Shown here piece by piece: positions 2,409-25,582 of a DNA stretch of 64,000 nt. Where the stretch lies: contig NZ_LDZY01000003.1 in NCBI RefSeq assembly GCF_001029285.1, positions 1 to 64,000 on the forward strand, in the 5' to 3' direction. Source of the DNA: Desulfosporosinus acididurans (GTDB lineage Bacteria > Bacillota > Desulfitobacteriia > Desulfitobacteriales > Desulfitobacteriaceae). The stretch's first letter is position 1. The number at the start of each line of letters is the position of its first letter. A model generated the notes under the pieces. The model searched no databases and had not been told where the DNA came from. It saw only the letters and a program-made list of their open reading frames with translations. Both the position numbers and the translations under genes were made by a program.

Positions 2409-3051
2409 TTATCCCCATCCTCAATACAAAAATTATTATGCAAATACCTAATAAAATCCCATTATCCCTCCTTTAAAAGATTCCTCAATTTTCTTTCTGT
2501 CCATACATATCTTTACAATACTATAGATCGTCTGTAAAATCTATATTTTTCAAAATACTGCTATCCTGAGGTCTATAAAGATAATTAATACCTTGTTGTT
2601 CCTTCATATGAACTTACTGCCTGCTTTTTTAATCTTTTTTCCTTTTAAAGAGGATGGGGAAAATTGGAGTAATTAATATTCATATTACACACTGCATTAA
2701 TATATAATATTCAAAATATTTTAAAATTTTCTCCCAATTTGAAGGAGTTCTTTTATCGAATGTAGAATTGTTTTTGTATACATTTTCTATGATATACATT
2801 TTTAGTAATTAATTATTTATTTTTCCATCTTAAGCCTCCACTTCTACAGTGGGAGTGGAGGCTATAGCTTGCTTCGATGGGGGTAGAGCTCCCACCGAAG
2901 CCTGATGTTCAGCTTCAGCTGAACGAGTTCACTAGAATCCTTTCTTAGAAATTTAAATAGGGGGGTGCACGACAAACTATTAAACGGTTTCGGAAAAGAG
3001 ATATTCATCCACTACACAGAAAGATCCAAAGACAGAGGAGGTTTTTTCCAA
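2409..3051. other. Intergenic region between the S53 peptidase and the plus-strand S-layer gene
   Basis: About 640 bp of AT-rich DNA separates two divergent genes. It contains an IS200/IS605-like remnant (2825-2932). The last ~95 bp form a leader that aligns by eye with the leader of the minus-strand paralogue: GGGGGTG, then GGAAAAGAGATA, then GATCCAAAGAC. A weak promoter-like stretch, TTGTTT followed by TATGATATAC, lies near 2771-2802, upstream of the remnant. No gene was recognised here. Confidence 0.5.
2825..2932 (-). mobile_element. IS200/IS605-like remnant, copy A
   Basis: Read on the minus strand it begins GTGAACTCGTTCAGCTGAAG and runs through a CTCTACCCCC block. It ends with a hairpin (CCACTCCCACT...GAAGTGGAGGC) followed by TTAAGATGG. 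The same ordered blocks recur at 26548, 41960 and 49044. The terminal GAAGTGGGAGTCT hairpin resembles IS200/IS605 right ends. No transposase remains. It lies only ~20 bp before the conserved leader of the plus-strand S-layer gene. Confidence 0.5.
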
Positions 3052-6000
3052 ATGAAAAAAACTCAAAATATCTTTGCATCATTGGCTATTATGAGTATGA
3101 CCCTAACCACAGTGCCATTACATGCTTTCGCGGACAGCATGGTGCCAACTCGTATAGCAGGTAATACCGCAGCTCAAACTGCTGCAGCAATCGCAGATCA
3201 AACCGGCTGGACTGGCATAGCAATTCTTGCTTCCTCAGCCTCCTATGGTATGGTAGATGCCCTGACTGCAGGACCACTTTCTACTTATTTGAAAGCTCCG
3301 ATCCTTTTAACCGGTCCTGGAAACACCTTGGACCCTGACACAAAAAATGAACTTACCAAACTCAATGTTAAAACGGTTTATGTCACCAGCGGTACCGCTG
3401 TAATCAGCCAAGCGGTGCTTGATCAATTATCAGGCATGGGCATTTCAGTTATTTCCCTTGGTGGTCAAGACCGTGCAGAAACTTCCGTTAACATTGCTAA
3501 AAGAATGGTTGGCGTAACTAAGGTTGCCGTTGCCAATGGATTACAAGATGCTCTTTCCATTGCTTCCGTTGCTTCCGCTGCCAATGAGCCTATTCTCTTA
3601 ACTGACAAAAATTCCGTTCCTCCAAGTGTTGCAGCTTACTTAACAGCTAACCCGAGCATCACTTCATCTGATGTTATCGGCGGAACAGGTGTTATCAGTG
3701 ATGCAGTAGCGGCTCAATTCCCGCACGCTACCCGCCATTTCGGAAACACCGCTTATGATACCAATAACCAAGTTATCCAAGACTTCAGTTCATCGCTCAA
3801 ATTCGATAATGTCTATGTAGCCAATGGCAACACTGGTATTGATGCTCTTGCAGGTGCGCCTCTTGCAGCTATGACCAACTCCCCCATTGTCCTCACAGAC
3901 GGAACAGTTCCTGCAGCAGCTGCGTATGTTCACGGTAAACTAGCCGCTGATGCTGTTGTAACTGCTCTCGGCGGTGCAGCTGTTGTTTCTGATCAAGTAC
4001 GTACCGGTATTCTCACAGGGCAAGTAAATAACCCAGGTGGACCTGTAGCTGTTACCTCTGTAACTGCTGTAAGCGCTGCGAGCTTCGAAGTAAAATTCAG
4101 CTCAGCACCTGCTGATCCATCTAAAGTTTCTTTCACAGTTACCAATACAGGCTCTCCCGTTACTGTAACTACCAGCTGGGACTCCACCAATACAGTAGCT
4201 ACCTTGTCTTGCGCTAATAACTTGCCTGAAGGAAGCTACGCTATCGATGTTCAAAATAACTCGTTTGATCTTGGCACAAGCACCGTAGCTATTACTGCAC
4301 AAAAAATTGCTAAGATCACTATCAATTCAACGAAACTTGCTGTGACCACAGCAAATTCAACCACTGCCGGCGGAATTGGTTATGCTACCTTTATAGCTCA
4401 GGACCAATATGGCAGTGATATTACCAGCAGCTATCTGGCCAATAACATTACCTGGACTACTGGTGTCGGTTCTATTACTGTTCCAACGCATGGTGTATTA
4501 CAGGTAACACCTAATACCATGAATCTTCTCACCTTCTCCACAGTGGTTATCACAGGTTATGATTCAAGCTCCGGTGTTTCTACAAGTGCAACTTTAAATA
4601 CTTCTACAGCGGCTGGAACATTAAGCAGTATAACGCTTAATAAACTGATCAACTCAAACAATGCAATTCTTACCGCTCAGGATACCAGCAACATTTGGTA
4701 TATTGATTACACCGCTAAAGATATGAGTGGCAATCCCACGAATGATTATAACCTTGTAAAAAACGGCTTAATTACAATTGGAACCGACTACGAGATAACA
4801 TGCTCCAATCCCTATGTAACTGCCAAAGTTGTACAAGATCCTAATGACAGCAACAAAGCTGCAATTCAAGTTACAGTTAATAGTACCTCTGTTCAAATGG
4901 ATATGCCCGTAACTATTACAGCTATGTGTTATGGAGGAACCCCTTCCTCTTTGACTTTAACGCTGAAGAAACAACAATCTGTTGAAACCTTCACTCTGAT
5001 GGCTCCGAATCAAGTAATTGCTTCTGGTGAATACAAACAAATTCCGTTTATGGCCTATGACCAAAACGGAGTTCAACTTACCAGATATAGTGATCTTACG
5101 AATGTTATTTTAAGTCCTCTATATTCCAATTCAAGTCAACCAGGAGCACAGTTAATACAAAATCCTGACGGTACAGCAAGTTTATGGTATCAGGCTAGCA
5201 CACTTCCTGCTGGTTCCAACCAAAGCCAGCCCGGAGTCATTACGGCAAGTGTCCCCGGATCAGGTAAAATCAGCACTATCACCATTAATATCCAAACACT
5301 TCCCAAAGCCAACACGCTGACTTTAAATAGTCATATTATGATCAGTTCTATGGAAGCGCCCACTGTTGCGTGCAATTTGATTCCTACCTCCGCCGCAGAC
5401 TACGGCGCAATTGAAAAAGTTGACTTCGGTTACAACTATGGGGGCTTAACCGTTAACGATCAATATGGCAGACCTATGGACTTTACCTCGCTTGCTAAAT
5501 ACGGAGCCGATGGTAACCGGTATCAAGTTGCGGCAACTACTACAGGAGGCTCCATTGCTTTGGATCAATGTGGTTCTGATAAAGAAGTTATGCTGCCTGC
5601 AGGTTATGGAGTAAGGTATGCTGTTGCCAATGCTGGGAAAAGCATCGAAATCAGGTCCTTAAAGCCAGGTCAGCAAACAGTTCGTTTCTATTTGTATGAT
5701 ACTTACCAAACGGCTAATGTTTCTGGCAGAAGGTCAGATGGTTCAACCTATAACAGAGGTGATTACATTTTTAATAACAGCATCAAGAACTACAACGATT
5801 TATCCCCAATTGATTCTAAGTCTGTGACTTACTCAGTGCTCCAAAATAAAGATATTAAAGGCTATACTATTGCTAAAGAGCCAAATCCAATATATGCAAA
5901 AATTCCTGCAACGACAAATTCAGCTCCAACAACAGCAGGGGCAATTACACTTCAGCAACAGGAGTACGAAGCTAACCCTTATGTATTTGGGCTGACAGCA

Positions 6001-6711
6001 GGCGGTGGTTTAGTAGTGCTTGCCGGCTATTCTATACAAGGGGCTTATGTTAATTCCAGCGACTTCTTAGTTGACACAGAAAATACCGGTGAGGTAAGTT
6101 GCGCGAAGCATACTGCCGATGCTGTCTATGTTGCGGCCAAAAAATTGGATCCTTCTAAGTCTTCGTCAAGCACTACCTTGACTGTAACTATAAAAGGTGC
6201 TGACGGGCTGACACATGCCGTAACAACGCCTATTACTTCGTCAACGACAAACCCTGTTGCACAATCGATGGGCGTGTATGTCGACCAAACAATAAATGGC
6301 GCCTCTCTCTCTGACGACGGCACCACGGTTTATATTAAAGCGGGCTCCGATGCCGATACTACAGGTTTAGCTGTAGGAAAATATCTCTCCCGTTATATTC
6401 CTGCCGCAGCTGCATTAAATGTTGGCGGAAAAAATCGCGCTGTAGTGTACTTCTATGCTAAAGATTCCTACGGAACAAAAGGTATCGATTTAGCATCAAT
6501 AAGCCTAGTGGGCAATACTGGTGATTTTACTGCAACTAATGTTACCAGTAATGGCGAGTTTAGCCTTAACAGTGATGGCAGCATTGCAAAAAATACATTA
6601 GGCCAAGAAGTACTAAGCAGTTCAGAGCCCGGCTTTACTAAGTATGTGACTGTTACCGGCGTAACAACAAGCGGATTACTGCAAACAGTCAAGATCGTAT
6701 ACACTAAGTAA
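3052..6711 (+). CDS. S-layer-like surface protein with three N-terminal CWB2 repeats (copy 1)
   Basis: The ATG at 3052 is preceded by AGAGGAGG at good spacing and is followed by a signal peptide ending AFA, so it is preferred over a GTG at 2965 in the same frame. The product is 1219 aa. Residues about 30-325 are three cell-wall-binding repeat 2 units with typical blocks (TRIAGNT, ILLTGPG, VISLGGQDR, VIGGTGVIS, ALGGAAVVS). The remaining ~890 residues are Thr/Ser/Val-rich Ig-like beta domains. In C. difficile such proteins form the S-layer and bind a wall polysaccharide through CWB2; here that is inference. DNA at 3141-3921 is almost identical to the opposite-strand paralogue at 9015-12623, whereas the central part is diverged. 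The leader is shortened by a mobile remnant, so it may be weakly expressed. Confidence 0.9.
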   Translation: MKKTQNIFASLAIMSMTLTTVPLHAFADSMVPTRIAGNTAAQTAAAIADQTGWTGIAILASSASYGMVDALTAGPLSTYLKAPILLTGPGNTLDPDTKNELTKLNVKTVYVTSGTAVISQAVLDQLSGMGISVISLGGQDRAETSVNIAKRMVGVTKVAVANGLQDALSIASVASAANEPILLTDKNSVPPSVAAYLTANPSITSSDVIGGTGVISDAVAAQFPHATRHFGNTAYDTNNQVIQDFSSSLKFDNVYVANGNTGIDALAGAPLAAMTNSPIVLTDGTVPAAAAYVHGKLAADAVVTALGGAAVVSDQVRTGILTGQVNNPGGPVAVTSVTAVSAASFEVKFSSAPADPSKVSFTVTNTGSPVTVTTSWDSTNTVATLSCANNLPEGSYAIDVQNNSFDLGTSTVAITAQKIAKITINSTKLAVTTANSTTAGGIGYATFIAQDQYGSDITSSYLANNITWTTGVGSITVPTHGVLQVTPNTMNLLTFSTVVITGYDSSSGVSTSATLNTSTAAGTLSSITLNKLINSNNAILTAQDTSNIWYIDYTAKDMSGNPTNDYNLVKNGLITIGTDYEITCSNPYVTAKVVQDPNDSNKAAIQVTVNSTSVQMDMPVTITAMCYGGTPSSLTLTLKKQQSVETFTLMAPNQVIASGEYKQIPFMAYDQNGVQLTRYSDLTNVILSPLYSNSSQPGAQLIQNPDGTASLWYQASTLPAGSNQSQPGVITASVPGSGKISTITINIQTLPKANTLTLNSHIMISSMEAPTVACNLIPTSAADYGAIEKVDFGYNYGGLTVNDQYGRPMDFTSLAKYGADGNRYQVAATTTGGSIALDQCGSDKEVMLPAGYGVRYAVANAGKSIEIRSLKPGQQTVRFYLYDTYQTANVSGRRSDGSTYNRGDYIFNNSIKNYNDLSPIDSKSVTYSVLQNKDIKGYTIAKEPNPIYAKIPATTNSAPTTAGAITLQQQEYEANPYVFGLTAGGGLVVLAGYSIQGAYVNSSDFLVDTENTGEVSCAKHTADAVYVAAKKLDPSKSSSSTTLTVTIKGADGLTHAVTTPITSSTTNPVAQSMGVYVDQTINGASLSDDGTTVYIKAGSDADTTGLAVGKYLSRYIPAAAALNVGGKNRAVVYFYAKDSYGTKGIDLASISLVGNTGDFTATNVTSNGEFSLNSDGSIAKNTLGQEVLSSSEPGFTKYVTVTGVTTSGLLQTVKIVYTK
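3141..3921. repeat. Near-identical inverted repeat, left arm
   Basis: Comparing by eye with the reverse complement of about 11745-12535, I find only about three mismatches in ~780 bp, even at silent positions. The segment encodes the CWB2 region. Outside this block identity drops within ~200 bp. Such homogeneity in otherwise diverged paralogues indicates recent gene conversion or inversion. Confidence 0.85.
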
Positions 6712-7013
6712 TAGGAACACATTAGAGTGATTAATAATATCCTGGCTTCCGCCGAGCTCTGCTGAGGACAGAAGCCATTAATTAAAGTTAATGCTTAAAA
6801 AGTATACTTTGTAATAGTTGAATGAAAACTGGCCCTGAATTTCAGAAAGAAAAATCAGGGCCAGTTTTCATTCTATTATTATCGTCCCATTATCGTTCTG
6901 TTATTGTTGTTTTATGATTGTTATTGTATTTGCAGGCCCCCAAAATGATCACTGCGAAAGTAAGAGGCCTCCGTCTATTGGATTCCTAATCTCAAACCTT
7001 GAGATTATCAAAA
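6712..7013. other. Convergent intergenic region
   Basis: This 302-bp gap lies between convergent surface-protein genes. It contains a strong bidirectional terminator at 6821-6872. Otherwise it is AT-rich, with no recognisable gene. Confidence 0.6.
6821..6872. terminator. Bidirectional rho-independent terminator
   Basis: A perfect 18-bp stem (AATGAAAACTGGCCCTGA paired with TCAGGGCCAGTTTTCATT) and a 16-nt loop lie 110 bp after the plus-strand S-layer gene and before the end of the convergent CWB2-FN3 gene. Confidence 0.8.
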
Positions 7014-8675
7014 TCACTTTGTGGCAGTGTAGGTAATATTCGAGAAATCACTTGGGCCTTTAGCACCAACCGCCTGCACTTTATAATAATAAACCTTACC
7101 AGTGGATACCGAACTGTCAAGATACGTTACAAAGGCCGGAGAGGCAATTTTCTCATACGTTCCAGAAAATGATGTTGCCCTATAAATGTTGTAATAAGCA
7201 GCATTACTGACTCCGCTCCAACTCAACAGGATTTGCGAATTATTCTGGCCCACTGCAACAAGATTTGTAGGTGGAGAAAAAACACTCTGGTCTAGTAAAG
7301 CCGTTGCGTACACCACGTTTGAGAATGCACCAGTGCCTGTTGTATTTACCGCCTGAACTTTATAGTAGTATGTTACGCCAGACGAAACGGTATCATCCGT
7401 ATAGTATGGAAAAGTAGCCGAAGTAACAAGTTGATATATCCCCGAATCAGCAGTGGTTCTATAAACATTATATGAAATGGCATTATTTACCGAATCCCAA
7501 GACAAATCGATCTCGTTCGTATCTACGGCATCCGCCTCAAAATGATTTGGACTTCCAAGTATACCGTTATTATCAACACCGGTATTAGTTCCACTATTAT
7601 TTCCCGTATTAGATCCGCTGTCAGTACCGCCATTGACACCACTAGTAGTACTACCCTTAGTCCCGCTATCAGTAGCAGTTCCAGAAGCAGCACTAGTATT
7701 AGTTGTAATAGTGCTTAGCAAATTATCCGATACGACTGCTGTTCCACCTAAAGCCGTTACCTTTTTAATGTTGTTCATATTATCCGTAAAAAAACTCAAG
7801 GTTTCAGCGTTAAGTGGTTCTTTTACAAGAATGACCGGCGATTTTGTTAGTGAGGCAAGTACAGATCCAGACAATGCATCGGGGTAGGTTTCTCCTGTTG
7901 CTACATAGCATGTGCTCAAATCAAGATCTTTAGCAAACGTTTTTATGATTTCGATATTTGTACTATAGTGATCAGTAGAATTTATTCTTTGGGGAGAAGG
8001 AAGTTGCTTAACAACACCATCACTAATATAACTCTCATCACCTAAAACATAGGTTTTCTCTACTGATTTCTCTACATAATCCTTGATATCCGGCTGGAGC
8101 AAATTTTCGGGCGTAAGTATAATTGGCATTTGTTTTAGTGCCGCAATAGGTGCAACAGATAATACATCTTGAAAATCATCACCTGAAGCAATCACTGCAT
8201 CATCAGACTTACCTAAAACTTGAGCTACATCTAAAGATGTTGCATAGCGATCTTGTCCGGCAATTCTCCATACATTAATGCCTAAATTCTCTATTTCTTG
8301 CTGCACTCCTGCGGAGAGAATTCCTTGTCCTCCAATCATAATTACACTTTTTACATGCAAATTTAAAAGTTCTTCTTTCGTTGCGTCCTCCAGGTGATTG
8401 ACAGAATTAAGCAAAATGGGAGCATCATATTTTGCGGCTAGAGGAGCAGCACATAATGCATCAGGAAAATTCTCCCCACTGGCGACGACTGCGTAATAGG
8501 ACGAAGTCCACCCTGCATTAGCAATAGCTGCAGCAGTCTGATACTGATCTTCTCCGGCAAGACGGGTATTCTGAATCTTCGTCGCTGTTACTGCATAGGC
8601 ACCCTTGGGCACCATTATCATTGAAACTAATAGGCAAAGTGAGATAGCAACTGATTTGAGTTTCAATTTTTGCAT
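7014..8675 (-). CDS. CWB2 surface protein with two fibronectin type III domains
   Basis: ATG 8675 (MQKLKLKSVAISL) follows GGAAGAG and starts a signal peptide ending AYA. A TTG 24 bp upstream in frame is less likely. The 553-aa product has three CWB2 repeats (about residues 35-330). Then comes a Ser/Gly/Thr/Asn-rich linker (about 335-375) and two FN3 modules, each with a YYYKVQAV strand. The CWB2 part should hold it on the wall while the FN3 pair projects outwards. No catalytic motif was seen, so an adhesive or structural role is likely but unproven. It is the only gene wholly inside the segment that would flip if the flanking inverted S-layer copies recombined. Confidence 0.88.
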   Translation of the reverse strand: MQKLKLKSVAISLCLLVSMIMVPKGAYAVTATKIQNTRLAGEDQYQTAAAIANAGWTSSYYAVVASGENFPDALCAAPLAAKYDAPILLNSVNHLEDATKEELLNLHVKSVIMIGGQGILSAGVQQEIENLGINVWRIAGQDRYATSLDVAQVLGKSDDAVIASGDDFQDVLSVAPIAALKQMPIILTPENLLQPDIKDYVEKSVEKTYVLGDESYISDGVVKQLPSPQRINSTDHYSTNIEIIKTFAKDLDLSTCYVATGETYPDALSGSVLASLTKSPVILVKEPLNAETLSFFTDNMNNIKKVTALGGTAVVSDNLLSTITTNTSAASGTATDSGTKGSTTSGVNGGTDSGSNTGNNSGTNTGVDNNGILGSPNHFEADAVDTNEIDLSWDSVNNAISYNVYRTTADSGIYQLVTSATFPYYTDDTVSSGVTYYYKVQAVNTTGTGAFSNVVYATALLDQSVFSPPTNLVAVGQNNSQILLSWSGVSNAAYYNIYRATSFSGTYEKIASPAFVTYLDSSVSTGKVYYYKVQAVGAKGPSDFSNITYTATK

Positions 8676-9014
8676 CACTATTGTCTCTCTTCCTTTCAAA
8701 ATAATTTTTACTCTTCATATTATTTTCAATACTGATCAAACCTCTTTGATATATGATGGAGCAATAAATTTATAGCCAAATTATACCACGAAAAACATGA
8801 AAAACCTGCAATAATTACTTAAATTTACAAGTCGTGAGTCAATTATCTCTTAAGATAGGTGCCAAATAGCTGTATCTATTTTCACTGACCGTCTATAAAC
8901 CTTTACAGTGAGTTTTTTTCTCAATTCTATGTAAGAAAAGGAGCCAATACACCCGAAAGCATATTGACTCCCTATCTCAATTAGTAACTTATGCAGTAAA
9001 CTTTGGATCTGAGA
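8676..9014. other. Intergenic region with terminator and possible promoter
   Basis: The 339-bp gap lies between two minus-strand genes. It holds the terminator of the upstream S-layer gene (8933-8972). A TATAAT-like -10 (complement of 8780-8785) could serve the CWB2-FN3 gene, but no good -35 was found. No additional gene is seen. Confidence 0.5.
8933..8972 (-). terminator. Rho-independent terminator of minus-strand S-layer gene
   Basis: On the minus strand GGAGTCAATA and TATTGGCTCC form a stem with one mismatch, followed by TTTTCTT. It lies 43 bp past the stop of the S-layer gene. Confidence 0.7.
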
Positions 9015-12000
9015 TTACTGTACTACATTAATCTTAACGGTTTGTACTAATCCACTTGTTGTTACAGCAGTAACAGTAAAGTAATAGTGTCCGTTTGCAG
9101 CAATAGCAGCGTTAATAGCACTAGCATCTACGTGAGTAATTCGTCCATATTGGTCAATTTGGAAATTGGTATGGCTGGCATCAGATGTTGCGTCAATGTC
9201 ATCTGAATTGTCAACGAGGCTGACATTTGCTAAATCCATACCTTTTGAACCATAGGAATCTTTAGCGTAGAAGTAAAGAGGTGCAGGATTTTTACCATCT
9301 TTTACGTCTGCTCCGCTACCTGTGATATTGGCATCAGAAGGATTGATATAGCGTGCCAGATATTGTCCTTGAACAAGGTCAGCAACCGGAACTGTAGCTG
9401 TTGTTCCATCATCGGAGAGTGTAACACCCGGTACTGTTGTATCAACATACAGGTTAATCGATTGTGCTACAGGATTTGTTGTGGAAGAAGTGATCGGAGT
9501 AGTTACTGTATGCGTTAATCCATCAGCGCCTTGGATGATTACTGTCAAAGTAGTGTTTGAACCAGTCTTCGAGGCATCTAATTTATTTGCTGCAACATAG
9601 ACCGCATCATAGTTTCCAGCTCCCGACAAGGTACCATAAGAAATAGAACCTTTTTCGGTCGGGTCAACTGTGAAGTCAGTTGAATCAACATACGCTCCTT
9701 TTATTGCGCCGTTTTTCAATACTACTTTACCGCCGCCGGCTGTTGTTCCCCATACATATGGATTAGCCTCATAGGCCTTAACACGAGGTGTAAAACCTCT
9801 GCCAAGCGTTGAGTCATATTCCGTATAGAGAGGACTAGCTACTTTATCAATAGCATAACCTTTGATATCAGTATTTTTGATTACCGAGAATGTTATAGTC
9901 TTGGTATCAATTGATGTTGTTAATGCACTAAAGTTCTTGAGAGCGGGATTAAATGCGGCATTATTCGCTTGTGTAATATCATACAGAGCAAAAGTAACGG
10001 TTTGTTGGCCTGTGGCGTCTGATAAGATTTCTACACCTTCGCCGCCATTACCACTGCCATCTAAGCCATTGATTAGAACTTGAGATTGAATAGCAGAGCT
10101 AGTAGTTCCATCTCCATAGGTTTGATGCAGCTCTATCGAACTTCCTGTTGTGGATGCGACAACTACGAATCTGTCATTGGGGTTGGTCGTACCATTGTAG
10201 GTGATGCCACCGTCTCCATATTTGGTGAGATCGGTGAAATCCATCGGTCTGCCATATTGGTCAAGAACCGATAAGCCGCCATAGTTGTAGCCAAAGTCTA
10301 TACGTTGTTGTGCACCGTCAGATTGCATTGTACTTACAACTTTTGTGCTGTCTAAGGACAATGTGTTAGCTTTAACAGGAGTTTGGACGTTAATGGTTAT
10401 TGTGCTGATCTTACCGGTTACAGGAACGCTTGCAGTAATAACACCCGGTTGACTTTGGTTAGTGTTATTGACAGCAGCTTGATACCACAGGCTGGCAGTT
10501 CCATCTGGATTTTGGACCAGCTTAACTCCGGTAGTCCCAGGGCCTGTATATTGAGGGCTTAAAACAACATCCTTAAGATCGCTGTATTTGGTGAGTTGAA
10601 CCCCATTTTGGTCATAGGCCATAAATGGAATTTGTTTGTATTCACCGGAAGCGATGCTGTAAGACGGAGCCATTAAAGTGAAAGTATTTACACTAGCCTG
10701 TTTCTTTAATGTCAAGTTCAATGATGAAGGAGCTCCACCATAAGTCATGGCTGTGATCGTTACAGGCATATCCATTTGAACAGAGGTGCTGTTAACTGTA
10801 ACTTGAATAGCTGCTTTGTTGCTGTCATTAGGGTCTTGGACAACTTTAGCAGTTACATACGGATTAGAACTTGTTAGTTCTAGGTCATCCCCAGTTGTGA
10901 TCAAACCGTTTTTAACGAGGTTATAATCATTGGTAGAATTTCCGCTTAGATCCGTAGCAGTATAATCGATATACCAAATGTCGCTGGTATCTTGAGCGGT
11001 AAGAACTGCGTTGTTTGAACTGGTCAGTTTGTTAAGCGTAATGCCGCTTAATGTACCAGCAGCTGTGGAAGTATTTAAGGTTGCACTTGTAGAAACACCT
11101 GAGCTTGAATCATAACCTGTGATAACTACTGTGGAGAAGGTAAGAAGATTCGTGGTGCCACTAGGTGTTACTTCCAATACGCCGTGTGATGGAACAGTAA
11201 CAGAACCGACACCGGTTGTCCAGGTAATGTTGTTAGCCAGATAACTGCTGGTGATATCAACGCCATATTGGTCGTATACTTTAAACGTAGCATAACCAAT
11301 TCCGCCGGTGATGCTTGAACTTGTTGTGGTCACAGCAAGTTTCGTTGAATTGATATCAATCTTAGCAATCTTTTGTGCAGTGATAGCTACAGTGCTTGTA
11401 CCAAGATCAACTGAGTCATTTTGAACATCGATTGAATAGCTTCCTTCAGGCAAGTTATTAGCGCAAGACAAGGTAGCTACTGTATTGGTGGAGTCCCAGC
11501 TAGTAGTTACAGCAACAGGAGAGCCTGTATTGGTAACTGCGAAAGAAACTTTAGATGGATCAGCGGGTGCTGAGCTAAATTTTACTTCGAAGCTCGTAGC
11601 GCTGACAGCAGTTACGGAGGTAACAGCTACAGGGCCGCTTGGATTAGTTACTTGTCCTGTAAGAATACCGGTACGTACTTGATCAGAAACAACAGCTGCA
11701 CCGCCGAGAGCAGTTACAACAGCATCAGTAGCCAGTTTACCGTGAACATACGTAGCTGCTGCAGGAACTGTTCCGTCTGTGAGGACAATGGGGGAGTTGG
11801 TCATAGCTGCAAGAGGCGCACCTGCAAGAGCATCAATACCAGTGTTGCCATTGGCTACATAGACATTATCGAATTTGAGCGATGAACTGAAGTCTTGGAT
11901 AACTTGGTTATTGGTATCATAAGCGGTGTTTCCGAAATGGCGGGTAGCGTGCGGGAATTGAGCCGCTACTGCATCACTGATAACACCTGTTCCGCCGATA

Positions 12001-12623
12001 ACATCAGATGAAGTGATGCTCGGGTTAGCTGTTAAGTAAGCTGCAACACTTGGAGGAACGGAATTTTTGTCAGTTAAGAGAATAGGCTCATTGGCAGCGG
12101 AAGCAACGGAAGCAATGGAAAGAGCATCTTGTAATCCATTGGCAACGGCAACCTTAGTTACGCCAACCATTCTTTTAGCAATGTTAACGGAAGTTTCTGC
12201 ACGGTCTTGACCACCAAGGGAAATAACTGAAATGCCCATGCCTGATAATTGATCAAGCACCGCTTGGCTGATTACAGCGGTACCGCTGGTGACATAAACC
12301 GTTTTAACATTGAGTTTGGTAAGTTCATTTTTTGTGTCAGGGTCTAAGGTGTTTCCAGGACCGGTTAAAAGGATCGGAGCTTTCAAATAAGTAGAAAGCG
12401 GTCCTGCAGTCAGGGCATCTACCATACCATAGGAGGCTGAGGAAGCAAGAATTGCTGTGCCAGTCCAGCCGGTTTGATCTGCGATTGCTGCAGCAGTTTG
12501 AGCTGCGGTATTACCTGCTATACGAGTTGGCACCGTGCTATCAGCAAAAGCATTGAACGGTACTACTGTTAAGGCCATTCCAGCAATAGCTAAAGATGCT
12601 AAAGCTTTTTTAGTTTTTTTCAT
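9015..12623 (-). CDS. S-layer-like surface protein with three N-terminal CWB2 repeats (copy 2)
   Basis: ATG 12623 (MKKTKKALASLAIAG) follows GAGAGGAG and begins a signal peptide ending AFA. The product is 1202 aa. Residues about 30-325 carry three CWB2 repeats, nearly identical in protein and DNA to those of the gene at 3052-6711. The remainder is a long array of beta-rich Ig-like modules. Some modules match the paralogue closely (around PYVTAKVVQDPNDSNKA and GADGLTH) and others are unrelated. It retains a long leader with several hairpins (12624-13080), which fits a highly expressed, stable surface-protein mRNA. A terminator follows the gene. It probably forms the S-layer or a major wall protein; this rests on the CWB2 family and size, not on direct evidence. 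Confidence 0.9.
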   Translation of the reverse strand: MKKTKKALASLAIAGMALTVVPFNAFADSTVPTRIAGNTAAQTAAAIADQTGWTGTAILASSASYGMVDALTAGPLSTYLKAPILLTGPGNTLDPDTKNELTKLNVKTVYVTSGTAVISQAVLDQLSGMGISVISLGGQDRAETSVNIAKRMVGVTKVAVANGLQDALSIASVASAANEPILLTDKNSVPPSVAAYLTANPSITSSDVIGGTGVISDAVAAQFPHATRHFGNTAYDTNNQVIQDFSSSLKFDNVYVANGNTGIDALAGAPLAAMTNSPIVLTDGTVPAAATYVHGKLATDAVVTALGGAAVVSDQVRTGILTGQVTNPSGPVAVTSVTAVSATSFEVKFSSAPADPSKVSFAVTNTGSPVAVTTSWDSTNTVATLSCANNLPEGSYSIDVQNDSVDLGTSTVAITAQKIAKIDINSTKLAVTTTSSSITGGIGYATFKVYDQYGVDITSSYLANNITWTTGVGSVTVPSHGVLEVTPSGTTNLLTFSTVVITGYDSSSGVSTSATLNTSTAAGTLSGITLNKLTSSNNAVLTAQDTSDIWYIDYTATDLSGNSTNDYNLVKNGLITTGDDLELTSSNPYVTAKVVQDPNDSNKAAIQVTVNSTSVQMDMPVTITAMTYGGAPSSLNLTLKKQASVNTFTLMAPSYSIASGEYKQIPFMAYDQNGVQLTKYSDLKDVVLSPQYTGPGTTGVKLVQNPDGTASLWYQAAVNNTNQSQPGVITASVPVTGKISTITINVQTPVKANTLSLDSTKVVSTMQSDGAQQRIDFGYNYGGLSVLDQYGRPMDFTDLTKYGDGGITYNGTTNPNDRFVVVASTTGSSIELHQTYGDGTTSSAIQSQVLINGLDGSGNGGEGVEILSDATGQQTVTFALYDITQANNAAFNPALKNFSALTTSIDTKTITFSVIKNTDIKGYAIDKVASPLYTEYDSTLGRGFTPRVKAYEANPYVWGTTAGGGKVVLKNGAIKGAYVDSTDFTVDPTEKGSISYGTLSGAGNYDAVYVAANKLDASKTGSNTTLTVIIQGADGLTHTVTTPITSSTTNPVAQSINLYVDTTVPGVTLSDDGTTATVPVADLVQGQYLARYINPSDANITGSGADVKDGKNPAPLYFYAKDSYGSKGMDLANVSLVDNSDDIDATSDASHTNFQIDQYGRITHVDASAINAAIAANGHYYFTVTAVTTSGLVQTVKINVVQ
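11745..12535. repeat. Near-identical inverted repeat, right arm
   Basis: Reverse-complement partner of 3141-3921, located in the CWB2 part of the minus-strand S-layer gene. The arms are ~7.8 kb apart and point towards each other, the geometry needed for inversion of the DNA between them. Confidence 0.85.
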
Positions 12624-13224
12624 GTAGTGAATATCTCCTCTCGTCTTTGGATCTCTTCTGTCTGGTGAATGACTATCTCTTTTCCTTACCTAGGACGTCT
12701 TTTAGTCGTCCCTCACCCCCTTAACATGAGTAGCACAATCTTTAGACATTGCGCAATATCTAAAAGTAGACCTAAGACTTTAGCGGGAGCGTCCCCCCTG
12801 AAGATGATATCTCATCCGCTCAGGCTACCCTTTAGAACCGCATAAAATATGAAACCACAAAAAAGGGTCTACATTAGCTATATGTATTCTCCATAATAAC
12901 TAATATTCCTGCTTACTGTCCGATTTTTTTTTATAAGTCTTTTAATTCAAGCCCAAAAATCCCCGAACAGACCACAGTCAGTACTTGTATAGTCTACACT
13001 AAAACTAACTAGTTTTCCACTATTTAGCCAAAAATATACTCTACAAGTAAGCTTATCTGAGTATAGCATAGTTTTTTGACCAAGATGTGAAAATCTTGTT
13101 AACATCTAATAAATATGTTATTTAGAAGTTTTAGCGAATAGTACAAGCTTAGGAAAAATTGAGCATATAGACTTGGCTGAATACCCGAGATCACTTTTAA
13201 TTCTCTTCGTATGAAAATACGTCT
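12624..13224 (-). promoter_or_regulatory. Long structured leader and upstream region of the S-layer gene
   Basis: The 601-bp gap holds several potential RNA hairpins on the minus strand: GGACG/CGTCC at 12693-12711, the near-palindrome GACATTGCGCAATATC at 12745-12760, and CCTGA..GATGA/TCATC..TCAGG near 12796-12826. A TATACT hexamer near 13062 is a possible -10, without a convincing -35; if used, the leader would be over 400 nt. No known riboswitch consensus was matched. The last ~95 bp align with the leader of the plus-strand copy. The amidase gene ends at 13225 and no clear terminator was found after it. Confidence 0.45.
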
Positions 13225-14817
13225 CTAGTACCCTTTATACTTCAAAATTCCTTCACATATCCCTGCGGCTGCCTTCTCTTGGAAATCCGGTGACCCCAAA
13301 AGTTTTTCCTCATTGGGGTTGGAAATAAATCCAATTTCGATAAGAACCGCCGGCATCTTCGTGTTTTTAATGACATAAAAGGGAGCATCTTTTACTCCTC
13401 GGTCGTTCAATCCTATCGCTGACACTAATTCACTTTGTACATTTTTGGCAAGAGCCTGGGATTGATCAGCTACAGGACTTGCTGAACTGTAGTAGCTTGT
13501 TGTCCCTGAAGCGCTTGGATTGCTGAAGGAATCATTGTGCAAGCAGATGAACATGTCCGCATTGGCATCGTTGGCAATTTTTGTACGTGCTTGAAGGTCA
13601 GAAAGCTCGGAATACGTCCCCTGAGCAGGAGATACATCTGTACTTCGAGTCATGATTACCCGTGCCCCAGCCGAACGCAAATCATTTTCCAGATCTAAGC
13701 CAACCGCCAACGTGTTGTTCTTTTCATAGGTTCCTGAAGGGCCAATAGCACCGGTATCCGGTCCTCCATGTCCCGGGTCAACAACAATAGTTAGTCCGGC
13801 TAATAATGAAGAGGGCGGAATTGTCCCTTCAAGCATACCCTTAACTTGATCACTAATGACTGCAGGCCCACCAATAATAACCATATTGAGCGGGCTAGCG
13901 GTTGGCCTTGATAAAACGGAGTATGTTGGCCCCGGCAACGTGGTTCCTTGAGTCATAACAATCTCCGCGTGCTGTTTTGCTGCCAATGCTCCGGCAGCAA
14001 GAGCATCCGGAAAATTTTCCCCGGTTACTACGTACATCGTTGTCGCAGTGAGATCGTTCTGAGCGAAGTCATAGACGTCTGCGGCGGTCTCGTAACGATC
14101 ATTTCCGGCTATGCGCTGCACATTGTTTAAGCCAGTTAAGGTTGAACTGGAAACAACTGCCTCACCACCCACAACAACAATATTAATATCTCCGTATTTT
14201 TGTCGTAATGTGTCAAGTTCTTGTTTTGTAGCATTAGGCATCGTATTAGCCTGCGTAAGAAGAATCGGTGTCTCTGTCTCACCGGCGTAAGCGGAAATCG
14301 CCAAGGCATCCGGGAACTGATCTCCATTGGCCAAAATTACTTGGCCTTTAAATCCTACACGTTCAGCAACCTTTTGAGCCGTTTCGTATTGGTCTTGGCC
14401 CCAAATCCGTTCCGGCTGTGGAAAACCTGCATTTTCCAGATCCGTTTCCACTTGAGAGCTTAGAGCCATGACTCCGCCTAAGAGAATGACCTTTTTGGCA
14501 CCTAAGCGTTTAATTTCCTGCATGACATAAGGATCAACTCCCTGGGACTGGGTCAAAAGAATGGGGGCATCTAATTGATGGGAAAGGGGTGCGGCAACTA
14601 AGGCATCCGGAAAATGATCACAATTTGCCAATAAAACTGTATCCGCATGCTGCCAGCCCGCTTGAGAAACTTTTATGGCCGTGTCAATCTGCCTTACCCC
14701 GTAAATTCTTGTGGTTCCAAAGTCCAAGGGAGATGCATTCGCGGGATTTTGAAACGCTATAAGGAAACTAAAAACTGCGATAACTATCCCAATGATCTTC
14801 CATTTTAAATGAGCCAA
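13225..14817 (-). CDS. N-acetylmuramoyl-L-alanine amidase (Amidase_3) with three CWB2 repeats
   Basis: The gene starts at TTG 14817, nine bases after AAGGAGGG, giving a 530-aa precursor with a signal peptide ending NANA. Residues about 33-330 are three CWB2 repeats. Residues about 340-528 are an Amidase_3 domain. Zinc ligands are His in DPGHGG, Glu in YEKNNTLA and His in CLHND; the catalytic Glu is in IEIGFISN (near residue 495). It should cleave the bond between muramic acid and the stem peptide while held on the wall by CWB2, as for C. difficile Cwp6-type enzymes. A TGTCGAA box (14854-14860) lies ~40 bp upstream on the coding strand, suggesting Spo0A control. All key residues are present. 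Confidence 0.93.
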   Translation of the reverse strand: MAHLKWKIIGIVIAVFSFLIAFQNPANASPLDFGTTRIYGVRQIDTAIKVSQAGWQHADTVLLANCDHFPDALVAAPLSHQLDAPILLTQSQGVDPYVMQEIKRLGAKKVILLGGVMALSSQVETDLENAGFPQPERIWGQDQYETAQKVAERVGFKGQVILANGDQFPDALAISAYAGETETPILLTQANTMPNATKQELDTLRQKYGDINIVVVGGEAVVSSSTLTGLNNVQRIAGNDRYETAADVYDFAQNDLTATTMYVVTGENFPDALAAGALAAKQHAEIVMTQGTTLPGPTYSVLSRPTASPLNMVIIGGPAVISDQVKGMLEGTIPPSSLLAGLTIVVDPGHGGPDTGAIGPSGTYEKNNTLAVGLDLENDLRSAGARVIMTRSTDVSPAQGTYSELSDLQARTKIANDANADMFICLHNDSFSNPSASGTTSYYSSASPVADQSQALAKNVQSELVSAIGLNDRGVKDAPFYVIKNTKMPAVLIEIGFISNPNEEKLLGSPDFQEKAAAGICEGILKYKGY

Positions 14818-14853
14818 TTATGATCCCTCCTTTTTAGCAACAAATTACTATTA

Positions 14854-14860
14854 TTCGACA
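14854..14860 (-). promoter_or_regulatory. Putative Spo0A (0A) box before the CWB2 amidase
   Basis: TGTCGAA on the minus strand, matching the core 0A box, lies 37 bp upstream of the TTG start. Confidence 0.5.
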
Positions 14861-14905
14861 TATCTAAATGATGTCCTGCAAAAAATTATGGTATTTTATC
14901 CCTTG

Positions 14906-17614
14906 CTAACGCAGCATGGCCTCTACCTTCTGGACGACACTGTCGGGCAGAGCGACCTTCCCGCCCAAAGTTTCAATTTCTTTTCCTTTCCACGACCTCA
15001 AAAGGGCCGCTAAACTTGAAGGTATTTCCGTCTTTGTCGGGACTAAGACAATCATTGAACCTTCCATAGCTGCCCGCACAGCTCCTGTAAGAGCATCCGG
15101 GAAGTTTTCTCCGGTAGCTAACTCCAGCTTTGACGAAAGAGGAGGATAGGATTGTAAAACAGCCGTTGCGGTGTCATAGACTGTGTTCCCGGCAATCCTT
15201 TTAGGAAGAGAAAGTTGATCTTCGATCTCGGAGCTAATGACAGCTGTTCCTCCTACAAGCAGCGTATCCGTGACCTGGAGTTCCTCAAGAGCGGTTTGCG
15301 TATCTTCAGATAAAACATCAGCTTCTGTCAGCAGTATGGGGACTCCCTGGCGTGCAGCCCAGGCGGAAATGGTTAACGTATCTTGAAAATGATTTACATT
15401 GGCAATCACTGCTCTTCCTTTTGTTCCTAATGCCTCAGCGATAGCACGGGCAGTACCTTCCGCAGTATAGCCGTAAAGTCGTTTAACGGTATAAGTCTGT
15501 CGCAGCTCAATTTCGATTGCTGAAGAAAGGGCAGCCGGACCGCCTAAGAGATAGATCGTCTTTGGAGCAAGGCGTTGGATTTCCTCCCGAACCTCAGGTG
15601 TCAATGAAGAACTGGAGGTAAGCAGAATAGGCGCCTGCAGCTTGTAAGCAAGAGGGGCACCGGCCAGAGCATCCGGAAACTGATTGGCCTGGGCGAGTAT
15701 CACCGCATCCGCTCCTGTCGGAAAGGCAGCCTGGGAAATTGCCACCGCGGTTTCTTCAGATGTAATACCCGCAAAACGCTGAGTTAATTGATCGGCGGCT
15801 TGAGCTGTCCCTGCCGCATAAATGCCCGGATTAAAAAGGCCAAGATGTATTTCTCCGGTTTGAAGTTCTCCCCCTAAGGCAATCCAGCGCTCGCCATCCC
15901 AGTGATAAATAATTTCGTTCGCTGTTCCCTTCAAAGATGGATCAGTGCAATTTAGGGAAAGCATTTCTTGAGGGGTCTCTGTTCCCCATTCCACATCAAA
16001 GGCCGGAGTTAAAATCCTTGCCCCGTTAGGAAGAGCCGCCGGGGTAGGAACGGTAGTCAGGGAAACATCAGCTGGAGAGTCAAAAGCCTGTGAGGGGACT
16101 GACAAACTAAAACTAGCCGACCCATCCGTGCTTTGCACATTTCCTCCCAGAATGCCCACTTTTGCCGGGGAAGAAAGAGTTTGCTCTGTTTGAGCGGCAA
16201 GGGTCAAAGCAAGTTTGACATCAACTAATCCATATCCGTATTTATTGTCTCTTCCAGGAGTTCCAAGATCTTTAACGCCTGCTTCCATGGCCGCAACGAC
16301 TTGCTCTCGCGTCCAATCAGGATGTAAACCCCAGATGAGAGCCGCCTCCCCGGCAACAAAGGGAGAAGCCATTGAGGTACCGCTGGCATTGGCATAACCT
16401 AGCCCCTCAGACATACTCCACCAATCACTGACGATTCCATCCCCTGGAGCAGCTAAACTGATCTGCGGCCCTGTTGCAGAAAAGGAAGCGATACTATCAT
16501 ATTTATCCGTGGCGGCAACAGCCAGGACATGTGGGTCTGCTCCAGGATAACTGACTCCGGCGCTTTGGGGCGACGAAGGATCGATATTTCCGGCGGAGGC
16601 GACTAATAAACATCCTTTGTTATAAGCATGTTTAACAGCTTGCTTTATCACCTCAGACGAGACTCCATTCTCCGAGCCGAGACTAAGATTGATGATCTTT
16701 GCTCCATGATCGGCGGCCCAAACTATTCCGGCAGCGATAGCATCATCATATCCATCTCCCTTAAAATCAACTGCCTTAATAGGCATAATTTTCGCCTGAT
16801 AGGCTACACCGACAATTCCCACATCATTGCGTTCCGCTGCAGCGATCCCGGCAACATGTGTACCATGTCCATTATCATCTTGATTATCCCCGGGGGCATC
16901 ACTTTGGGTGATCGCATTGTAGCCGGGGACAATATTATCCTTTAAATCCGGATGGTTGAGGGCAATCCCAGAATCTACGATGGCAATTGTTACCCCCTTG
17001 CCTGTTGCCCCCATGTCCCAAGCTCCCTGAACATCCCCGTTGACGATAGACCATTGATACTTAAAATACGGATCTTGAGGTGATGAGGAATCAACAGCAG
17101 CTATCTTATGAAGGTGATTCTCTTCCGCAGTGAGAACCCCAGGGAACCTTTTGAGGCTGGGAATTAGAGAAACTGCATTAGTCGTGCTGTTAAATTCCAG
17201 GGTCGCAAAATTTAACGGCCCGCGACGTAGAACCGTGGCCTTAAATGCCTTAGCCACATTTGTAATATCTGTTTTAGAGGATACGGAGACGACAATTTGC
17301 TTTGATTGTAATGAATCCGATGCCAAGTTTGGCGATTGAGTTTGAACATTTGTTTTTTTACCATTCATTTGGCTTAAAAATAAAGACTTATTCGATGCGG
17401 TATTTTTTATCGAGCTAAGAGTCTTTGCTTGAGCTTGGGTTCGAGCTTGTTTTTGAGTCTTAATTGCTCTTATGGCAAGATCGTCCCGCCCCATTGAGGA
17501 AATAAGTAGATTAGAGTTTAATATTAATCCAATTATTAAAAATGGAACAATCCCATATTTAGTTTTATGTGCAGATCTAATAGCGAAACTCACTTTACCG
17601 AAGATATCTCCCAC
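14906..17614 (-). CDS. Subtilisin-like (S8) serine protease with C-terminal CWB2 repeats
   Basis: The GTG start at 17614 follows AAAGGGA closely; an internal start would lose the hydrophobic export segment (about residues 22-42), so it is retained. The product is 902 aa. Residues about 105-170 resemble an I9-type propeptide. Residues about 200-470 are the S8 domain, with catalytic Asp in VDSGIALNHPDL (near 212), His in GHGTHVAG (near 250) and Ser in GTSMASP (near 413). A beta-rich spacer follows (about 490-600), then three CWB2 repeats to the end. It is probably a wall-anchored protease that could mature S-layer precursors or process hydrolases. C. difficile uses the unrelated cysteine protease Cwp84 for that job, so the role is inference. 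A perfect 0A-type box is 35 bp upstream. Confidence 0.92.
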   Translation of the reverse strand: MGDIFGKVSFAIRSAHKTKYGIVPFLIIGLILNSNLLISSMGRDDLAIRAIKTQKQARTQAQAKTLSSIKNTASNKSLFLSQMNGKKTNVQTQSPNLASDSLQSKQIVVSVSSKTDITNVAKAFKATVLRRGPLNFATLEFNSTTNAVSLIPSLKRFPGVLTAEENHLHKIAAVDSSSPQDPYFKYQWSIVNGDVQGAWDMGATGKGVTIAIVDSGIALNHPDLKDNIVPGYNAITQSDAPGDNQDDNGHGTHVAGIAAAERNDVGIVGVAYQAKIMPIKAVDFKGDGYDDAIAAGIVWAADHGAKIINLSLGSENGVSSEVIKQAVKHAYNKGCLLVASAGNIDPSSPQSAGVSYPGADPHVLAVAATDKYDSIASFSATGPQISLAAPGDGIVSDWWSMSEGLGYANASGTSMASPFVAGEAALIWGLHPDWTREQVVAAMEAGVKDLGTPGRDNKYGYGLVDVKLALTLAAQTEQTLSSPAKVGILGGNVQSTDGSASFSLSVPSQAFDSPADVSLTTVPTPAALPNGARILTPAFDVEWGTETPQEMLSLNCTDPSLKGTANEIIYHWDGERWIALGGELQTGEIHLGLFNPGIYAAGTAQAADQLTQRFAGITSEETAVAISQAAFPTGADAVILAQANQFPDALAGAPLAYKLQAPILLTSSSSLTPEVREEIQRLAPKTIYLLGGPAALSSAIEIELRQTYTVKRLYGYTAEGTARAIAEALGTKGRAVIANVNHFQDTLTISAWAARQGVPILLTEADVLSEDTQTALEELQVTDTLLVGGTAVISSEIEDQLSLPKRIAGNTVYDTATAVLQSYPPLSSKLELATGENFPDALTGAVRAAMEGSMIVLVPTKTEIPSSLAALLRSWKGKEIETLGGKVALPDSVVQKVEAMLR

Positions 17615-17648
17615 TCCCTTTAATTCAAAGCATTTATATAGCGACTAA

Positions 17649-17655
17649 TTCGACA
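17649..17655 (-). promoter_or_regulatory. Putative Spo0A box before the subtilisin gene
   Basis: TTGTCGAAT on the minus strand contains the full TGTCGAA core, 35 bp before the GTG start, in a divergent promoter region. Confidence 0.5.
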
Positions 17656-17736
17656 AAAATCGCCGCTTTCCTTTTCTTCTTTTTGCGTCAATCAAAAGCA
17701 ATCTCCTGTAATACCCCTAATTGTTTGATATTGGCA

Positions 17737-17750
17737 TTCGACTTGTCGAA
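17737..17750 (+). promoter_or_regulatory. Putative paired Spo0A boxes in the divergent promoter region
   Basis: TTCGACTTGTCGAA is an inverted pair of 0A-like cores; the right half TTGTCGAA is perfect. It lies ~80 bp before the GH18 gene and ~125 bp before the divergent subtilisin gene. Confidence 0.55.
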
Positions 17751-17828
17751 ATTTCGGCAGGTGTTCTCATTTTTGTAACGAATACTTAATGGCAACAAAT
17801 AAACCCGCTGCCAAAAAAGGAGGGGAAG

Positions 17829-19904: not shown

Positions 19905-19907
19905 GAG

Positions 19908-19951
19908 AAAAGCCGCCACTAATTTACTGAATAAAATAGTGGCGGCTTTTT
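19908..19951 (+). terminator. Rho-independent terminator of the GH18 gene
   Basis: Stem AAAAGCCGCCACT / AGTGGCGGCTTTT with a T run, three bases after the stop codon. Confidence 0.85.
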
Positions 19952-19978
19952 GGGGCAAAATTCGAGTACATATTTGCA

Positions 19979-19997
19979 GTGAACTCGTTCAGCTTCT
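19979..19997 (+). mobile_element. IS200/IS605-like remnant, copy B (short end fragment)
   Basis: AGTGAACTCGTTCAGCTT equals the left end of the dispersed remnant family, without the hairpin part. It is a fragment only. Confidence 0.35.
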
Positions 19998-20032
19998 GTT
20001 TATTGTTTATAATATTTCTCCGGATTTGTGTA

Positions 20033-20335
20033 TTAAATCTCATTTTGTCGAGGATGACGAACTAGGAGAATTTCAATTTCATCTTTTTCAAGCCGATAGA
20101 AAACTTTGTACGGCCCAGATTTTCCAATAGATAATAGTAGTAATTTAAGGTTAATGGGGTATCCTTCAATAACTACATCTTTTCCAGGAATATATATAGA
20201 AAAGTCTTGTCGTTGAAAATACTCATTGATGTATCTCCTCAAGAATGCTGCCATAGGTCTAAGTTCTATTTCTCGTCTCCATTTATCTAATGATATGAGT
20301 GAATCAACCGCTGATCTTCTCCAGTGGATTTTCAT
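20033..20335 (-). CDS. ParE/RelE-like toxin of a type II toxin-antitoxin pair
   Basis: A 100-aa basic protein starting at ATG 20333-20335, which overlaps the stop of the upstream small gene by four bases (ATGA). The C-terminal pattern (VFYRLEKDEIEILLVRHPR) is typical of the RelE/ParE fold: a central beta-sheet ending in a strand rich in Val/Leu and a conserved Arg-His. Such toxins cleave ribosome-bound mRNA (RelE) or inhibit gyrase (ParE); which applies is unknown. The assignment rests on fold-like pattern, size and the coupled partner. The pair is alone between the GH18 gene and the glycosylation operon. Confidence 0.7.
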   Translation of the reverse strand: MKIHWRRSAVDSLISLDKWRREIELRPMAAFLRRYINEYFQRQDFSIYIPGKDVVIEGYPINLKLLLLSIGKSGPYKVFYRLEKDEIEILLVRHPRQNEI

Positions 20336-20574
20336 AAAGAACCTAACGCTTTATCAATTTCTGAATCAGAAAGAATCGGGTTATCTCCTTCTAAAGCCTC
20401 TAATAGCAGTCGCTTTTCCTCGTCATCAGTTACTTCGTAAACATTAGCATCATTATTGTCCGGATATTGTTCGACTTCGAATAATAAAAATTTCCGGTTA
20501 CCAATTTCAAAATAAGATGAACCTGAATTAACTGCTTCAAGGATGTCCTTATTTTCGATTTTAGTTGCTTTCAA
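20332..20574 (-). CDS. Probable antitoxin partner
   Basis: Small acidic protein (80 aa from TTG 20574, which has GGAGAGGAG eight bases before it; a TTG at 20595 in frame lacks such a site). The N-terminal half is predicted beta strands (SSYFEIGNRKFLLFEVEQY) and the C-terminal half is acidic helix (DDEEKRLLLEALEGDNP), typical of an antitoxin that wraps its toxin. It is translationally coupled to the downstream toxin by a 4-bp overlap. No DNA-binding motif is obvious. The family was not recognised by name; the function is inferred from arrangement. Confidence 0.6.
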   Translation of the reverse strand: MKATKIENKDILEAVNSGSSYFEIGNRKFLLFEVEQYPDNNDANVYEVTDDEEKRLLLEALEGDNPILSDSEIDKALGSL

Positions 20575-20646
20575 ACTATCAATCTCCTCTCCCAAACAAA
20601 GGATTGAGATAATTATATCATGATTTGCTGGATTGTCCCCAAAAAA

Positions 20647-21357: not shown

Positions 21358-21366
21358 ACCTTCGTT

Positions 21367-21783: not shown

Positions 21784-21786
21784 CGT

Positions 21787-23094: not shown

Positions 23095-23126
23095 TGAATC
23101 AAACCCCCGTGTTCTATTTCATAGAA

Positions 23127-25535: not shown

Positions 25536-25582
25536 TTCCTTCTTCCCCTTCCAACCCTAATTCTTGTTTCTTTACTCATATA

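Follow-up and report, generated by a model that had tools for sequence, protein, structure and literature searches.

The sap system of Campylobacter fetus is a family of surface-layer (S-layer) genes that share a conserved anchor part and vary in the remainder, in which promoterless cassettes are combined with one invertible promoter; the slpA and slpB genes of Lactobacillus acidophilus share sequence at their exchange point, and S-layer cassette exchange in Clostridioides difficile occurs between strains. S-layer antigenic variation in C. fetus proceeds through DNA inversion (PMC3364211), and inversion of the slp segment of L. acidophilus interchanges active and silent S-layer genes (Boot et al., 1996, cited in PMC6176008). 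Here we analyze two convergent S-layer genes of Desulfosporosinus acididurans, which we call A and B, whose products share a nearly identical CWB2 wall-anchoring half. They lie in a window of 64,000 nucleotides, the first 64 kb of contig C3 (NZ_LDZY01000003.1) in a 47-contig draft of the 4.64-Mb genome. A preliminary description of this DNA had proposed an invertible or gene-converting surface-antigen switch. Of its two halves, gene conversion is well supported by silent sites, by conflicting trees with topology tests, by a paralog on another contig and by relatives; a dedicated switch is not, as we found no recombinase domain in the 40 window proteins scanned, no change of orientation in the relative with the most similar locus and no contig with an alternative junction. 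Our preferred reading, to which we give a probability of roughly 0.86, is that the anchor half was recently copied between A and B by ectopic gene conversion, within a long-running exchange among paralogs that includes the copy on the other contig. The open-licence literature searched yielded no account of exchange between S-layer genes in Desulfosporosinus.

Gene A (3052–6711, + strand) encodes a protein of 1219 amino acids and gene B (9015–12623, − strand) one of 1202, each with three CWB2 stretches (PF04122, E = 3.5e-45 and 1.8e-45, respectively). We placed the start of gene A at the ATG at 3052, which is preceded by AGAGGAGG and agrees with the family alignment; the GTG at 2965, which merely opens the longest frame, was rejected on the same family comparison. 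Between the two genes lies a gene for a protein with CWB2 and fibronectin-III (FN3) domains (7014–8699, − strand; PF04122 and PF00041). The near-identical core, which spans the mature N-terminus and the CWB2 region, occupies 3141–3921 (+) in A and 11754–12534 (−) in B and has exactly three mismatches in 781 bases (at 3218, 3276 and 3330), with a perfect run of 591 bases (3331–3921). These values bear out what had been judged by eye, namely about three mismatches, near-identity at silent sites, and an inverted orientation with a spacing of ~7.8 kb, with coordinates right to within 10 bases.

The 5′ edge of the core is sharp and coincides with the end of the signal peptide: 26 of the 89 bases in 3052–3140, mostly signal peptide, differ between the genes. 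On the other side the homology decays gradually, from ~95 to 85% identity over 3922–4513 (+) in A and in the same manner over 11162–11753 (−) in B. Self-comparison joined these parts into inverted arms of 1480 nucleotides (3034–4513 and 11162–12641) that are 94% complementary, about half of which is the core, and beyond which lie 609 nucleotides at 82%, followed by pieces of 122 nucleotides at 71% and 92 nucleotides at 77%. Counted by residue, A–B identity 3′ of the core is 92% at residues 291–370, 87% at 371–560, 77% at 561–700 and ~60% thereafter.

For comparison we used G001, the relative whose locus is most similar, which carries a convergent pair (A′ and B′) around the same FN3 gene, with the same orientation. 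Four-fold degenerate sites at residues 120–289 are identical between A and B in 102 of 102 cases, as against 61 of 93 between A and A′ and 72 of 97 between B and B′. At residues 701–850, only 14 of 37 such sites agree between A and B, which confirms the silent-site divergence claimed earlier for the downstream halves. Because four-fold sites follow the same course as overall identity, the identity of the core cannot be put down to selection on the protein. Purifying selection acting alone on the wall anchor, which could appeal to CWB2 being the best-conserved part of the protein in a six-gene comparison, is refuted by these counts, and we give it next to no credence. Of the 868 codons at which A and B encode the same amino acid with a silent alternative available, 222 differ, yet 199 consecutive ones are identical (residues 94–296 of B). 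No such run was reached in 20,000 shuffles, in which the longest was 48, nor in 20,000 shuffles limited to residues up to 560. The pair thus shows a tract of near-identity, silent sites included, flanked by diverged homologous sequence, as expected of gene conversion.

One more full paralog, C15, is present in the assembly, on contig 15. It is 74% identical in the core, which is near 100% at only two places in the assembly, those in A and B. G001 also has a tandem pair of C15-like genes (C′) at 1.18 Mb, with A′ and B′ at 4.59 Mb. We built trees of three segments from 17 genes of 8 genomes, chosen out of a larger set (40 genes, 18 genomes), and compared topologies by the approximately unbiased (AU) test, for which groups were defined by position, though earlier 40-gene trees had been inspected beforehand. 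In the tree of residues 30–300, genes grouped by genome for A with B (support 100/100) and A′ with B′ (95/93), and C15 grouped with C′ (100/99); constraining A with A′ or B with B′ was rejected (p-AU 1.3e-50 and 1.4e-63, respectively). In the tree of residues 371–700, A, B and C15 formed a clade (100/99) and a grouping of C15 with C′ was rejected (p 2.6e-7). From residue 701 to the end, B joined C15 (100/99), B′ joined C′ (100/99), and A′ joined genes of two other strains (100/99). The union of A with A′ was rejected in all three segments (p-AU ≤1.3e-50), as was that of B with B′ (p ≤5.8e-5). By the tree, the AU tests and the six-gene comparison, the diverged C-terminal part of A (4514–6711, +) is thus related to those of B and the contig-15 paralog and not to that of A′, and the last 500 residues of the diverged C-terminal part of B (9015–11161, −) are sister to the contig-15 paralog.

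The signal peptides track position clearly for B and B′ and for C15 and C′, which are 93% identical in amino acids in each case in the six-gene comparison. The position signal is less clear for A, whose signal peptide is 66% identical in amino acids (77% in nucleotides) to that of A′ and 66% (71%) to that of B, with SMTLTTVP present in both A and A′. The AU tests and the signal peptides together place paralogs closer to each other within a genome than to their orthologs inside the tract and not outside it. The simplest reading of these segment histories is that the body of A would have been overwritten by the B/C15 type while its own 5′ end was kept, and that the core would have been overwritten again recently. 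The mature N-terminus has PTRIAGNTAAQTAA in A and B, PTRLAGNTAAQTAA in B′ and STRLAGTTAAQTAT in A′; because the core of both genes has the B′-type N-terminus, the latest transfer, a putatively non-reciprocal one, probably ran from B to A.

These observations suggest a mechanism in which homologous recombination, presumably of the RecA type, would use the long homology between S-layer genes as a repair template and copy tracts between loci without crossing over. The wall-anchor half, where homology is highest, would be homogenized most, and the outer half would be patched less often and would diverge. The signal peptide and leader might escape either because homology stops there or because changes are selected against, such that leader and signal peptide would stay with their locus and the mature protein would be replaced piecemeal, one segment at a time. 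The effect may be to keep the wall anchor uniform while the outer part is reshuffled. The participation of C15, from a different contig, means that the process does not depend on the inverted arrangement of A and B. The locus shows how a cell could keep a wall-anchoring half uniform and let the exposed half diversify with no dedicated enzyme in sight, and it offers a clean system for measuring exchange, in that leaders and signal peptides serve as position markers from which exchange between loci can be read directly.

A recent partial duplication of one gene would also yield a very similar core at just two places. We regard it as highly improbable, because homology spans both genes from end to end and their divergence is graded, because the core and C-terminal trees conflict, and because the position of A is present in G001 with a partly shared signal peptide, such that the A locus probably predates the identity.

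Similar patterns recur in the genus. The core was matched in 25 of 29 Desulfosporosinus genomes (our own counted), and all 22 named loci related to gene A were Desulfosporosinus records. Self-comparison of 21 sequences, the window and 20 loci (numbered with an L), found S-layer pairs at 70–98% identity over at least ~2 kb in 12 and none in the other 9. Inverted pairs occur in the window, L057 and L060–L065, and direct pairs in L058, L060, L061, L063 and L066–L068. Mosaic patches of 90–100% identity recur among the relatives, often within the first 800 bases of the mature gene, and patchy high identity is also found in direct-repeat pairs (L058 and L066), where crossing over deletes instead of inverting. 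In G001, tandem S-layer genes (L058:1391–5602 and 5802–10015) share 98.4% identity across 4.2 kb, bounded sharply near one end.

Trees were also built of all 40 genes from 18 genomes, 15 of them multi-copy. Cherries, or pairs of neighboring tips, joined genes of the same genome in 7 of 14 cases for the CWB2 part, 7 of 14 for residues 371–700 (one of them weakly supported, at 25) and 6 of 13 for residues 701 to the end (one weakly supported, at 35). None of 5,000 label shuffles for each segment gave as many, with a mean of ~0.5. In assembling this set, a gene was kept only once if residues 101–500 and the last 100 residues were identical to those of a gene already included, a rule that removed one of the two tandem copies of L058 and loci that had been fetched twice. 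The set comprises open reading frames (ORFs) of at least 500 amino acids that are at least 52% identical to B in the CWB2 part and continue for at least 500 residues beyond it; two rows, a truncated Soudan gene and a cut copy of an SRJS8 gene, were omitted from the trees.

Several points weigh against gene conversion as we read it. The label shuffles take no account of how the genomes are related, and same-genome cherries in the CWB2 part are absent from 8 of the 15 multi-copy genomes, which indicates that the process does not act uniformly. An identical core is left by conversion and by two-way exchange (inversion) alike, and the last event could have been an inversion. Finally, in a 47-contig draft the 591-base perfect run, which exceeds the length of short reads, could partly be an artefact of repeat resolution. 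That the core identity as a whole reflects a collapsed repeat placed at both sites we nevertheless consider very unlikely, because three mismatches were resolved at the 5′ end of the core, the homology continues as graded divergence through unique sequence, and patches of 95–100% identity are also present in the near-complete relatives G001 (3 contigs) and G010 (1 contig).

The other half of the earlier proposal, an invertible expression switch in which a crossover in the core would flip the 7.8-kb segment and join each leader and anchor to the outer part of the other gene, strikes us as unlikely. Its appeal lies in the geometry, with convergent genes whose 5′ ends point outward, an in-frame core of near identity and high-identity inverted repeats around the segment to be exchanged, and also in the leaders, which differ in that a conserved RNA precedes B (98 bits) and not A (7.4 bits), such that inversion would affect expression. 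However, each of the two genes has its own ribosome-binding-site-like sequence and signal peptide, only B having the leader RNA in addition; a scan for promoters and terminators performed at chance level (27 found versus 25.9 expected). The assembly, which represents a single strain, has only one orientation, with the near-identical core at just two places and no contig bearing an alternative junction. A switch, moreover, does not explain why homogenization extends to C15, on a separate contig, and to direct copies in relatives.

As the preliminary description had remarked, no recombinase is in view: we found no recombinase, integrase or transposase domain in the 40 window proteins scanned (39 of the 59 listed ORFs plus an open-ended ORF at 3–2408), a scan that covered every listed ORF of more than 165 amino acids, that gave no Pfam match of any kind for 3 of the 40 proteins, and that on the left reached base 1 of the window, where the contig begins. 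Site-specific inversion was set aside on this ground.

Comparison with related strains, which had been put forward as a check, showed the FN3 gene lying the same way round in the window and G001. An apparent reversal came from two other species, represented by L064 and L065: between their convergent S-layer genes, and within flanks that agree, lies a fragment in opposite orientation (L064:11453–12086, L065:6829–7685). This fragment proved to be a remnant of the insertion sequence (IS) IS66, with matches in 10 of 12 genomes, and because the comparison is confounded by IS mobility we did not count it as evidence of inversion.

We also followed the block that adjoins the B side of the locus, identified by domain scan as genes for a CWB2 amidase (13225–14817, −), a CWB2 subtilase (14906–17614, −) and a CWB2 glycosyl hydrolase 18 (GH18; 17829–19904, +). 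These neighbors are conserved: the amidase and subtilase genes are adjacent in 11 of 12 genomes laid out, and GH18 adjoins the subtilase in 10 of the 12, the stretch from the 11th stopping before GH18. In the genomes with divergent pairs (G003, G006, G008 and G011), where inversion would be expected to flip the block, it has one orientation in 4 of 4, and the same orientation holds in all 10 genomes that have the block together with its right flank. The third S-layer gene of G010 (L066:15790–19518) is reversed relative to G003, G006, G008 and G011, and the neighboring block is not; a core-to-core inversion, which would have flipped the block, was rejected as the explanation.

In another relative, the FKB strain, the A-type and B-type genes are direct and not inverted (L043:12103–16071 and 19524–23078), unlike those of the window and G001. 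A core-to-core inversion was rejected here too, since it keeps both 5′ ends in place. The direct orientation of the FKB A-type gene means that the arrangement of the locus does change within the genus. We conclude that inversion by ordinary homologous recombination is physically possible, that a frequent dedicated switch is unlikely, and that a switch is unproven and less likely than gene conversion.

The present locus resembles slp and sap in having a conserved anchor and a variable remainder, and differs in that inversion is not demonstrated. In the L. acidophilus slpA/slpB pair one gene is silent and inversion has been reported; here both genes have a ribosome-binding-site-like sequence and a signal peptide, the inverted form was not seen, and the pattern of homology fits conversion that involves a paralog on another contig. 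Neither the promoterless cassettes nor the invertible promoter of C. fetus was seen in the locus. Unlike the between-strain exchange of C. difficile, the exchange described here takes place among paralogs within one genome.

There is nevertheless a likeness to C. difficile, in that a CWB2 S-layer locus differs in ancestry from its flank. Window and FKB strain are 74% identical over 12601–17299, 87–89% over 17526–25321 and 88–92% at 52–61 kb, where FKB is closer to the window than G001 is, such that identity drops from 87–89% to 74% at ~17.3–17.5 kb on the way toward the S-layer genes. Against G001, identity is 76–78% over 13216–25608 and 86% over 12601–13161, which holds the start and leader of gene B. 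From these alignments, the S-layer side of the locus probably differs in ancestry from its flank, either in the window or in FKB. The break in ancestry relative to FKB, at ~17300–17526, falls near the boundary of the subtilase and GH18 genes.

Gene B is preceded by a structured leader RNA (12726–12834, − strand; 98.1 bits; covariation), which we consider a more novel by-product of the analysis than the conversion finding. It consists of a three-way junction (helices P1, P2 and P3) followed by a near-invariant hairpin, is ~110 nucleotides long, and is common to B and most S-layer genes of the set, with a pattern match in 30 of 42 genes. Two further genes reach 44.7 and 50.8 bits with the covariance model; of the other ten, two are too truncated to be judged. 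The RNA is also present at L059:8754–8862 (−) and in many relatives.

We assessed covariation in two alignments. The first, made from sequence only, contained 24 and then 26 of the 30 leaders with the motif; 11 of 26 base pairs had changed on both sides, as many as in none of 500 shuffles, although the structure had been set after single folds were viewed and one of five measures (further pair types) did not go beyond the shuffles (56 of 500). The second comprised 54 matches across the order (49 distinct), in which 14 of 26 pairs had changed on both sides, including 7 of the 8 pairs of P1, and all five measures exceeded all 500 shuffles, in an alignment that was fitted to the model and hence leans toward it. 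The final hairpin is nearly invariant and proves nothing alone. Judging from the sequences of the genus, its UUUAG could pair with a CUAAA upstream of P1, which would suit a switch that alternates between two folds.

Within the genus the covariance model matched 25 of 29 genomes. At the level of the class it matched 52 of 82 genomes, from 17 of 27 genera, and in a sample of the phylum 12 of 398 genomes, all 12 in the order of the window; the class and phylum searches were filtered more strictly, at the cost of some weak matches. All 20 matches fetched from outside the genus lie 40–166 nucleotides before an ORF with a family-like signal peptide, some of these ORFs being cut by contig ends, and CWB2 was found in 8 of the 8 downstream proteins scanned (of the 20). 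Covarying secondary structure and a fixed position before one class of genes are properties of a cis-regulatory RNA, and the leader is accordingly a candidate cis-regulator of S-layer synthesis, as judged by comparative analysis. It could be tested as such across the order, Desulfosporosinus included.

Rfam 15 gave no match at gathering score in the window, and a permissive scan of 12400–13224 returned four matches far below gathering scores; the invariant hairpin was not found in viral contigs, and no description of the leader was found in the open-licence literature searched. The closest described RNA is the SLH motif (Stav et al., 2019, PMC6429828), a riboswitch candidate and structured RNA upstream of S-layer-type genes, known from Synergistaceae, Clostridia and Negativicutes, ~60% of whose examples precede SLH-domain proteins. 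The B leader is likewise a structured candidate before S-layer-type genes in Clostridia. It differs from the published description of the SLH motif in that it precedes CWB2 proteins where checked and, in the phylum sample, occurs in its own order only.

The leader of gene A (2837–3051, +) lacks this RNA. Its best score on the + strand is 7.4 bits, and its resemblance to B (77% over 2992–3139) is confined to the region close to the ribosome-binding site. A diverged copy of the RNA before A or A′ was considered and dropped, the + strand scores being only 7.4 and 5.0 bits, respectively, and in the PR and FKB strains, too, the A-type genes had no leader motif by pattern. Because the leader RNA is present only on B, the A and B loci probably differ in control, and any exchange of bodies, whether by conversion or by rare inversion, would therefore change which body is made behind the RNA. 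One could go further and regard B as an S-layer expression site marked by an uncatalogued, riboswitch-like RNA, and A as its leader-less partner, with recombination in the core (conversion or an occasional inversion) changing the outer body under the RNA to give this environmental sulfate reducer a surface switch that needs no recombinase. This extension is speculative, and we are inclined to doubt it; were it true, surface variation would be linked to an expression site that an RNA marks.

Inside the leader of A lies a dispersed repeat of three hairpins (2840–2933, +), recognized by BLAST matches and by alignment with 8 fetched copies (L138–L145). Of 228 candidate matches in its own genome 40 were scored, and among these the repeat was found, complete or partial, at 38 further places. 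We relied on BLAST matches because a 23-base pattern (allowing up to 3 mismatches) matched the repeat in the window only, the fetched copies differing in length at that point. The fold of 2820–3060 has a z score of −3.51, and the right edge of the repeat is sharp, with GAGTTCACT followed by unrelated sequence. As a guess, the repeat could be the end of an IS200/IS605-type element.

Two other features of the window lie outside the S-layer genes. A gene for a Pro-kumamolisin-type protease (3–2408) runs off the start of the contig and is divergent from gene A. An intergenic stretch at ~57080–57570 has many short matches across G001, G017 and G009 and represents another dispersed repeat family.

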